Below are positions 26,447 through 28,459 of a stretch of 44,747 nt of DNA, one piece after another. Source of the DNA: Candidatus Omnitrophota bacterium (GTDB taxonomy: Bacteria; Omnitrophota; Gorgyraeia; 2-01-FULL-45-10). A program made the position numbers and the translations under genes. The stretch is from assembly GCA_003142795.1 (NCBI GenBank), contig PLNN01000037.1:7680-52426 (forward strand), read 5' to 3'. How positions within the stretch are numbered: position 1 is the first letter of the stretch; the number at the start of each line of letters is the position of its first letter. A model generated the notes under the pieces. The model saw only the letters and a list, made by a program, of their open reading frames with translations, was not told the DNA's origin and did no database searches.

Positions 26447-26852
26447 CAAGATGTTCATATATTGCGACGGCGGCAGCCGCGGAAATCCCGGGCCTGCCGG
26501 CATAGGCGTCGTGATCCTGGACGCGAAGAAAAAGAAGCTAAAAGAACTTTGGAAATACATCGGCGAGACGACCAATAACATCGCCGAATATACCGCCCTC
26601 ATCCATGGATTGGAAGAAGCGGCGAATTTAAAAGCTGACGAGATAACGATCCACATGGATAGCGAGCTCGTCGTAAAGCAACTGTGCGGTGAATACAAAG
26701 TGAAGAATGCGAATATAAGGCCGCTTTTTGAAAAAGCGCTTGGTATTCTAAAAAAATTCCAGGCTTTCGAAGTGAAACATATAGGCCGGGAAAAGAATAA
26801 AGAAGCGGATAAGCTAGTAAATAGGGCTTTGAATTTATCGAGTTTGTTTTAA
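26436..26852 (+). CDS. rnhA: Ribonuclease HI family protein
   Basis: The 138-aa RNase H fold has the four acidic residues: Asp in FIYCDGGSRGNPG, Glu in NIAEYTALIHGLEEA, Asp in IHMDSELVVKQL and Asp in KEADKLVNRAL. It lacks the basic protrusion of E. coli RNase HI and resembles the short YpdQ/RnhA-like type. It degrades RNA in RNA-DNA hybrids. The TTG at 26436 overlaps the zinc-ribbon gene, while ATG 26451 in the same frame is an equally likely start. The RNase P RNA begins within 2 bases of its stop. Confidence 0.9.
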   Translation: MKNSKMFIYCDGGSRGNPGPAGIGVVILDAKKKKLKELWKYIGETTNNIAEYTALIHGLEEAANLKADEITIHMDSELVVKQLCGEYKVKNANIRPLFEKALGILKKFQAFEVKHIGREKNKEADKLVNRALNLSSLF

Positions 26853-26853
26853 G

Positions 26854-27283
26854 CGCAGACCGGGTGTTCGCCTGCCGTTTTAAACGTCGGGAGGAAAGTC
26901 CGGGCTCCACAGAGCAGCGTAGCGGTTAACGGCCGCCCGTCGAAAGACGAGGATAAGAGGACAGAGACGAGTCTACTTCGCTGCTACTCTAAAATCGTAA
27001 TGAAGCTACGTAGCACCAAGGTTTCCATGAAAAATGGGGCTTGCCGCTACGAAGCTCCATTAGAGTTTAAGAGTAGTAGCGTAGTAGGGTGAGACGACCA
27101 ATCTCTACGCGGAGCAAGACCAAATAGGTTCTGATCAAGGAGTTGCTCGCTCCTACTGGAAAACACGTCAGTATCAGAACGGGTAAGGTCGCTTGATCGC
27201 CGGAGTGATCCGGCGACCAGATAGATGAACGCCTCGTCCCGATCATATCGGGGCAAGACAGAACCCGGCTTACAGGTCTGCGG
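26854..27283 (+). ncRNA. rnpB: RNase P RNA (bacterial type A) with an enlarged P12
   Basis: This is the catalytic RNA that matures tRNA 5' ends. The universal core GGGAGGAAAGTCCGGGCTCC is at about 26889. CGGAGCAAGACCAAATAGG lies at about 27111-27129, and ACAGAACCCGGCTTACAGG near the end. P1 forms between CGCAGACC (26854) and GGTCTGCG (27275-27282). About 430 nt is longer than usual, because a 117-nt hairpin fills the P12 position in the specificity domain. It directly follows rnhA, so it may be processed from that transcript, and ends at a clear terminator. Confidence 0.95.
26972..27088 (+). repeat. Three-tier hairpin occupying P12 of RNase P RNA
   Basis: The outer arms 26973-26990 and 27070-27087 pair at 16 of 18 positions (one of the others is G-U). 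The inner arms TAATGAAGCTACGTAGC and GCTACGAAGCTCCATTA pair at 15 of 17. At the tip CAAG/CTTG and CCAT/ATGG close on GAAAA. It lies between ACAGAGACGAG and GGTGAGACG, which correspond to J11/12 and J12/11. In B. subtilis P12 is about 20 nt. It may be an inserted repeat or a lineage-specific extension. Confidence 0.75.
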
Positions 27284-27284
27284 T

Positions 27285-27319
27285 GAGGGGTGGTGAAATT
27301 TTACCACCCCTCATTTTTT
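27285..27319 (+). terminator. Rho-independent terminator of rnpB
   Basis: GAGGGGTGGT pairs perfectly with ACCACCCCTC (10 bp) around GAAATTTT and is followed by ATTTTTT. It lies directly after the P1 3' strand. Confidence 0.92.
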
Positions 27320-27385
27320 ATGCGCAGAAATTTTTCGTCCTCAGCCTAAACCTAATCCTCGTTACGGTGAGCACAAGTTCACGCC

Positions 27386-27623
27386 ATCGCAAAAGATTTT
27401 GTTAACGGCCTGAATTTTTTCGCCGTGCGCTACGGTTTACGTTTCGCGAATTTGCAGGAATTCCTTCGGCCGCTGTTTAATTTTCGCTTTTCGCGAAAAT
27501 TATGCTAAACAGCGGCCTCAGTCAGTTCCTGCATTCGCTCAACGTAAATCCTTGCGCACCTACACCCATAACTCAGTAATGCCGAAAAAATTCTAATGGC
27601 CGTTCACAAAATCATTTTGCGAT
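27386..27623. repeat. Long imperfect palindrome A1 (238 nt)
   Basis: The two halves pair over the whole length around a TTTTC loop near 27500. From outside in: ATCGCAAAA/TTTTGCGAT, GATTTTGT/ACAAAATC, CGGCC/GGCCG, AATTTTTTCG/CGAAAAAATT, GTGCG/CGCAC, GTTTACGTT/AACGTAAAT, TGCAGGAA/TTCCTGCA, GGCCGC/GCGGCC, TGTTTA/TAAACA and AATTTTCGC/GCGAAAATT. Internal loops separate the steps. No convincing coding frame runs through it. It could fold as a hairpin RNA from either strand, or be a non-autonomous mobile element. It is part of the 613-base gap between rnpB and the mraZ promoter. Confidence 0.85.
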
Positions 27624-27678
27624 TTCTGTGCAATTCGTCCACATAGTTTTGAATCGGGTTTTATCCTATCCTCCTCAG

Positions 27679-27927
27679 AAAATTTTTTGCTTTCATGTTG
27701 AAGGATCCCCAGAGGCGTTTGTTCGATCAACTTCTCAGGAATGTGATGTGGCGATGTGGTGAGCAGGGCGTTAAAACTTGCGCGGCAGCGTCCGCGCAAG
27801 TTTTACCGAGCGAAAATTTTGGCATGGTCCAAAATTGAGCGTCCCTGCGAACCACTCGACACAGCACATTCTACCACCAGCGCACAACGCCGACAAGGGA
27901 ACCCTCTGGAATAGAAAAATTTTCCCT
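27679..27927. repeat. Long imperfect palindrome A2 (about 249 nt) next to the mraZ promoter
   Basis: Outer pairs are AAAATTTT/AAAATTTT, CCAGAGG/CCTCTGG, GGCGTTTGT/ACAACGCC, GAATGTG/CACATTC and GTGGT..AGGG/CCCT..ACCAC. The centre branches into two hairpins: AAAACTTGCGCGG/CCGCGCAAGTTTT (13 bp) and AATTTTGG/CCAAAATT. Its 3' edge is 5 bases before the -35 box of the mraZ promoter. The left arm and first central hairpin recur at 44658-44747. Confidence 0.8.
27737..27827 (+). repeat. Dispersed 91-bp module, copy A
   Basis: It begins AGGAATGTGATGTG and ends CGAAAATTTTGGCATGG, with a 13-bp hairpin inside. It matches 44658-44747 in the same orientation with six substitutions and one indel. A further similar stretch, CTCAG..AAAATTTTT.GCTTTC, lies upstream in both copies, with about 35-40 extra bases in copy A between it and the module. 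Confidence 0.9.
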
Positions 27928-27932
27928 ACCGC

Positions 27933-27961
27933 TTGACAAGGAGTGGGGAGTAATGTATACT
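27933..27961 (+). promoter_or_regulatory. Promoter of the dcw cluster (PmraZ)
   Basis: TTGACA (27933-27938), 17 bases, TATACT (27956-27961). The hexamers and spacing equal those of the cvpA promoter. The start point would fall near 27968, just before the MraZ boxes, so MraZ would bind the initially transcribed region. It is the only promoter recognised for the 16 kb that follow. Confidence 0.88.
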
Positions 27962-28009: not shown

Positions 28010-28459
28010 ATGTTTTATGGTGAATATGAGCACACTATAGATAATAAGGGAAGGCTGATAATACCTTCCAAATTCCGGGAGTCCTTTAAGGAATACGATA
28101 TAACCAAATTATATATTACCAGAGGGCTCGACAAGTGTCTTTTTGTATTCACCGAGAACGAGTGGAAGACCCAGGAATCCAAATTCAAATCCATATCGTT
28201 CACAAAATCCGAGGCTAGAAAATTTAACAGGTTGTATTTTTCCGGCGCCAGCCAGCTTGAGTTCGACAGGCAGGGCAGGATACTCATCCCGAAATATCTG
28301 AAAGATTTCGCCGGCATAAAGAGGGATTGTATGATGATAGGCGTTTCGAACAGGATAGAAGTATGGTCCAAAGATATCTGGCAGGGATATTACAACAGTT
28401 CCAAAGATTCATTTGAAGAGATCGCAGAGAAGTTAATGACGCGGCAGGACGAAGAATAA
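28010..28459 (+). CDS. mraZ: Transcriptional regulator MraZ
   Basis: The 149-aa protein has two AbrB-like MraZ modules. The first holds DNKGRLIIPSKFRE (about 12-25) and the second FDRQGRILIPKYLKD, each with the DxxxR signature. MraZ forms a ring-shaped oligomer that binds direct repeats upstream of its own gene and controls the dcw operon. Boxes of that kind lie just upstream. The ribosome-binding site GGAGG overlaps the operator. A 62-aa ORF separates it from rsmH, where many genomes have none. Confidence 0.95.
   Translation: MFYGEYEHTIDNKGRLIIPSKFRESFKEYDITKLYITRGLDKCLFVFTENEWKTQESKFKSISFTKSEARKFNRLYFSGASQLEFDRQGRILIPKYLKDFAGIKRDCMMIGVSNRIEVWSKDIWQGYYNSSKDSFEEIAEKLMTRQDEE

Follow-up and report, generated by a model that had tools for sequence, protein, structure and literature searches.

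The window, the whole stretch of 44,747 nucleotides analysed here, carries between rnpB and mraZ a long imperfect palindrome, element A. In our view A is probably a mobile DNA repeat of the hairpin type found in Candidatus Omnitrophota, non-autonomous, whose single-stranded fold would be read by a trans-acting protein. We take A to be mobile because it is dispersed, intergenic and missing from the orthologous gap of relatives, and because its copies keep to one hairpin plan by matched changes in the two arms.

Structure of element A and its place in the rnpB-mraZ gap

The initial annotation had described a palindrome at 27386-27623 with nested rungs, unequal internal loops and a 5-base loop in the centre. 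Repeat finding confirmed each of these points. The features of the region are listed below, with the strand given where one applies.

26852-27288, plus strand: rnpB, RNase P RNA class A (Rfam RF00010, 198 bits)
26974-27087: palindromic expansion in rnpB, in the hairpin between GACGAGTC and GGGTGAGACG
27284-27319, plus strand: terminator-like hairpin and T run at the rnpB end, left limit of the inserted DNA (inverted repeat; same arrangement in relatives)
27321-27632: possible full extent of A (inverted repeat as outer rung; left flank shared by the copies L020, L024 and L046)
27386-27623: element A, long imperfect palindrome of six nested helices with unequal internal loops (folds, rungs, homologous copies with two-sided changes)
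27391-27410/27598-27617: rung of A
27412-27422/27583-27593: rung of A
27412-27424: left side of helix 3, GAATTTTTTCGCC, plus the 5' portion of the large internal loop
27425-27451/27533-27559: rung of A
27434-27441: GGTTTACG motif, site of hairpin insertion in relatives' copies; mirror site in the right arm at 27543-27551
27454-27460/27526-27532: rung of A
27468-27479/27506-27517: rung of A
27468-27517: tip hairpin, varying in sequence and length among copies
27478-27487/27493-27502: rung of A
27560-27583: long side of a conserved asymmetric internal loop, ~23 nt versus 3 (alignment and consensus structure)
27677-27925: element B, a second palindrome with AAATTTT-type ends (fold z -5.4; core 27735-27884 multicopy)
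27933-27961, plus strand: mraZ promoter TTGACA-17-TATACT, bounding the inserted DNA on the right (conserved in relatives)
28010-28459, plus strand: mraZ (ORF; homologues 67-85% identical, same place in relatives)

Folding of both strands against shuffled controls, as the initial annotation had proposed, gave a single long hairpin on either strand. The plus strand of 27386-27623 folded at -112.5 kcal/mol, while the mean of dinucleotide shuffles was -52.0 kcal/mol (z -14.0); the corresponding values of the minus strand were -121.7 and -60.7 kcal/mol (z -13.7). None of 200 shuffles was as low. A palindrome scan of the whole window yielded three palindromes above threshold, all within 900 bp, i.e. 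A, 27740-27871 in B and 26974-27087 in rnpB, and three locally shuffled windows yielded none. The palindrome is not explained by a reading frame, in agreement with the earlier reading: the ORF list of the window holds no ORF of at least 60 aa across A, and one minus-strand ORF overlaps its last 31 bases. Element A may be extended by an outer rung, 27321-27331/27622-27632. The left side of the extended form has about 54 unpaired bases including the motif CCTAAACCTAATCCTCGTTACG, which is also present ahead of other copies (L020, L024, L046).

The gene order rnhA-rnpB-mraZ was found in nearly all relatives searched. In the window the gap between rnpB and mraZ measures 721 bp, with A and B lying past the rnpB terminator and ahead of the mraZ promoter. 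Of 19 related loci, 15 had a gap of 123-227 bp that lacked A and consisted mostly of terminator, short spacer and promoter. Thus we concluded that A is an insertion in this gap rather than a conserved inhabitant. The remaining four loci had longer gaps of 321, 374, 390 and 913 bp. Those of G002 and G023 contained other palindromes according to the scan, and inverted arms were seen by eye in that of G016, indicating that the site was invaded more than once. A conserved regulatory RNA of the rnpB-mraZ region would fit the position of A exactly between terminator and promoter, but the relatives examined lack A in this gap, and A occurs at other places in its own and in other genomes. This reading is extremely improbable, and an RNA conserved in this locus was rejected because of the empty gaps.

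Palindromic DNA was also observed in rnpB itself and in an mraZ leader. The rnpB hairpin between GACGAGTC and GGGTGAGACG comprises 113 nt here versus 15-24 nt in most relatives, and in G005, G006, G007, G008 and G023 this hairpin is filled by other long palindromes. This suggests that a variable helix of an essential ribozyme has been repeatedly invaded by palindromes. In the mraZ leader of G025 (L108) a palindromic insert of ~100 bp with GGAG on either flank occupies the ribosome-binding region just ahead of mraZ; the congener G019 is devoid of it.

Dispersal and empty sites

A second copy of A with 95% identity is located at a contig end of the same genome. Matches to A were detected in 21 of 57 relatives, many of them multicopy, with full copies being 71-88% identical to the A of the window, and in 29 of 285 genomes drawn from Omnitrophota, spread over several families of the class. 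A search of a collection of 84,980 species for exact matches to the A core returned 23, all from Candidatus Omnitrophota. From these matches and from kinship we infer that the window itself belongs to this phylum. A phage or plasmid origin of A was discarded, as there was no match in phage and plasmid records and no exact core match in viral contigs (one pattern).

Simple ORF calling placed none of ~40 A copies inside an ORF; all were intergenic. One site just past a stop codon was found in four states in four congeners. G004 has a short gap, i.e. a clean empty site. In G017 A is followed by another palindrome (~640 bp), in G020 A is inverted and lies among other palindromes, and in G023 the site is occupied by a palindrome other than A. 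A comparison of G025 with G019 revealed an A-containing composite just ahead of a gene start that is intact in both. As a dispersed non-coding insertion with empty sites, A has one of the traits of a MITE. The suggestion of an old hairpin-type mobile element in the initial annotation is therefore well supported by the dispersal, the multiple copies, the gaps without A in relatives and the clean empty site.

Two genera carry A together with different further palindromes at another intergenic site, which separates an rnfC-like gene from an MFS gene (L028 and L034). Both A copies have a derived TGCAAAAATTCC/CAGTTTTTGCA stem variant in common, and A at this site is possibly an old shared insertion.

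Samples of 196 kb from the own genome and of 100 kb from a relative in which A was not detectable contained 5 and 4 palindromes, respectively, that span at least 90 bp, genome-wide counts resting on searches and samples. Large palindromes in themselves are thus no peculiarity of genomes that carry A. Assembly gaps (NN) were seen at the tips of B and D palindromes in the own genome (L072, L074, L081, L082, L085). These gaps, together with the many contigs that end in such elements, make the copy numbers for this genome lower bounds. If our reading of A is right, hairpins of this type help to account for assembly breaks and gaps in Omnitrophota genomes.

Matched arms and the question of DNA or RNA

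The initial annotation had proposed a test for compensatory changes. We used an alignment of 27 A copies without internal insertions, in which 62 pairs are predicted. Pairing was preserved in 95.9% of cells (shuffled mean 89.6%), 25 of the 62 pairs were changed on both sides (shuffled mean 15.5), and 135 cells were changed on both sides (shuffled mean 48.7). None of 500 shuffles reached these values, the counts being those of related sequences and not of independent events. Sliding the arms by 1-3 columns reduced pairing to 35-47%. Hence the arms do not drift independently. The unequal internal loops and their sequence are kept across genera as well, while the tip hairpin is free; its sequences and lengths differ and are mostly self-complementary. 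In the copies from distant families (24 loci, L196 being an apparent chance match) the outer arms are wholly different between genomes and still complementary. Their common plan is GAAATTTTTCGCC-GTGTGC-TAC-GGTTTACG ... CGTAAA-CCTT-GCACAC ... GCC-GAAAAATTTC-TAAT.

When a pair in an RNA loses one side, G-U is tolerated better than A-C on the transcribed strand. The half-changed pairs of A comprised 36 G-U and 43 A-C, i.e. there was no wobble bias, with two constant G-U positions set aside. In contrast, rnpB of the same genomes, used as a control, had 92 G-U and 33 A-C (Fisher p 1e-4 on cells and 0.03 on types). The lack of a G-U excess in A, unlike in rnpB, points to DNA rather than RNA. From the sequence comparison this argues for selection or repair acting on A as DNA, on either strand, with which transcription of A, and even a function of the transcript, would be compatible. 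Neither A nor B had a match in Rfam 15 at gathering score, and the best matches below threshold were at chance level; a known RNA family was accordingly dropped as an identity for A. The proposal of a structured RNA kept by selection, also made in the initial annotation, thus holds in one part: covariation shows that the structure is maintained. It does not hold for an RNA of this locus, given the empty gaps, nor does A carry the wobble signature that rnpB has. If our reading of A is right, A also serves as a warning that strong covariation is in itself no proof of RNA.

A related view is that A is a dispersed structured RNA, e.g. of gene leaders, whose folded transcript is selected and whose spread is secondary. 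The strong conserved fold and loops would agree with it, and so would a mild orientation bias: in 27 of 40 cases the left neighbour was a minus-strand gene (p 0.04), which often places the minus strand of A just ahead of a gene read in the same direction. Yet G-U is not favoured over A-C on either strand, whereas rnpB has this bias, Rfam gives no match, and A occurs in both orientations with no fixed gene partner. We regard a dispersed RNA as rather improbable.

Matched arms might also arise in an inert, decayed palindrome by hairpin-templated repair copying one arm to the other. L053 shows one such event, with the right arm at the inner loop replaced by a sequence exactly complementary to the left arm. 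Thus templated conversion occurs, and it may supply part of the covariation of A; templated repair would account for the missing wobble bias, too. On the other hand, it would erase internal loops, while the unequal loops of A persist with their sequence across genera, and dispersal and empty sites require movement. Matching of the arms by repair alone in an inert A is therefore quite improbable.

Recognition, relation to known systems and nested palindromes

We return to a mobile A, which is probably recognised by a protein as folded single-stranded DNA, a view prompted by its shape and by analogy. The DNA of A would become single-stranded and one strand would fold. A trans-acting recombinase or transposase would read the stem and the asymmetric internal loops, which would also tell the enzyme which strand is held, and would move A into A+T-rich gaps between genes. 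The tip would be unread and could hence vary and accept other hairpins. In this genome both A and B were inserted into the stretch that separates the rnpB terminator from the mraZ promoter. No mobilising protein for A emerged among the Y1 and integron integrase candidates searched.

TnpAREP recognises single-stranded hairpins in a manner that depends on stem mismatches and GTAG (PMC8266576). REPs are 20-40 bp long and have a terminal GTAG or CGTC tag (PMC3733652). Like REP/REPIN with RAYT, A is intergenic, multicopy, palindromic and non-autonomous, and stem mismatches matter for the single-strand recognition of REPs (PMC8266576). Y1 genes were present in 22 of 26 genomes of the family, and 32 of 38 A copies carry GTAG on their minus strand. 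These data would suit A as a giant REP/REPIN relative moved by a RAYT-type Y1 (HUH) transposase. However, GTAG is positioned at an internal loop, away from the hairpin foot, and is GCAG in other copies, while CGTC (26 of 38 copies) lies within a stem and is replaced in others. A has six helices, conserved internal loops and no terminal tag, and its copies align as one unit of ~240 bp and not as a REP of 20-40 bp or a doublet. Furthermore, no Y1 gene adjoins it. The Y1 genes of the own genome are flanked by their own short palindromes and not by A, none was located within 20 kb of the A copies listed, and none was detectable in the A-bearing G004 and G005, genomes that are 87% and 82% complete. 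These searches did not show Y1/RAYT to be the mover of A, and we consider a REP-type origin unlikely.

Integron attC sites resemble A in their conserved imperfect stem, in unpaired bases that give polarity and in a variable terminal structure. Typical attC sites are shorter than A. In contrast to attC, none of 38 A copies has R'' (RYYYAAC) and R' (GTTRRRY) boxes in the right order, gene cassettes are lacking, and none of 17 genomes encodes an integron integrase by TIGR02249 above the curated cut-off. Thus A as an attC site was rejected.

Bacterial MITE-like palindromic elements such as Correia/NEMIS, RPE and Nezha are short, non-coding, dispersed and hairpin-forming and lie between genes, all of which applies to A. 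They differ from A in that A conserves unequal internal loops rather than the termini alone and is restricted to Omnitrophota in the searches made. Neither a parent transposase nor a target duplication was found for A, whose A+T-rich self-complementary ends and diverged empty sites would hide the latter. Judged by title and abstract, none of the papers found on Omnitrophota deals with such palindromic repeats, and as far as our searches reach A is an undescribed variant of bacterial palindromic mobile repeats.

Some copies of A contain extra hairpins. In the left arm they are inserted at the GGTTTACG motif (L054, L060 and L061, with different inserts), in the right arm at its mirror (L052, L055, L061, L068). 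The L054 insert has GCGGT on either flank and resembles the insert in the mraZ leader of G025. A similar double hairpin in L082 interrupts another palindrome family at GGGTTTA. Some REP dimers have been reported within longer palindromes (PMC3733652), which is a precedent for nested palindromes as such. Nesting may mean that hairpins are targeted, or no more than that one hairpin is tolerated within another.

A bolder reading, which we put forward tentatively and would not bet on, is that A founds a phylum-wide class of ssDNA hairpin transposons read by folded shape and not by simple terminal repeats. The variable tip would be unread, and the stem motif GGTTTACG would be a landing site for other mobile hairpins, giving nested palindromes that still fold. 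If our main reading of A as a mobile hairpin is right, a little-studied phylum harbours undescribed, widespread mobile DNA hairpins in which an RNA-like preservation of shape apparently operates at the DNA level, and the A copies provide a large set of natural variants with which to look for the enzyme recognising them.

Further palindromic families of the own genome have polar ends, AAATTTTT.CGGGTGACGC on one side and GCAGGACCCG.AAAAATTT on the other. Paired polar ends in the 57 genomes were short pairs only, ~80 to 450 bp apart, a spacing too short for a transposase gene, and an autonomous, ORF-bearing version sharing these ends was not found in this set. One polar-end match beside a Y1 gene (C50:55295) lies inside coding sequence and was set aside as chance. 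Only some A copies, e.g. L052 and L047, have polar ends; a shared origin of A and these families is thus a lead and not a result.

Element B is present in more than ten copies in this genome with 83-96% identity. A diverged homologue in G025 (L022, 1800-1990) forms two hairpins on one stem with the conserved loop sequences GGCAGCGT and CATGG, which indicates that B, too, is a conserved multi-arm structure and not a simple palindrome. The window ends with the contig at 44396-44747 in a palindrome with a CGGGTCCTG-type end and a partial B copy (92%).
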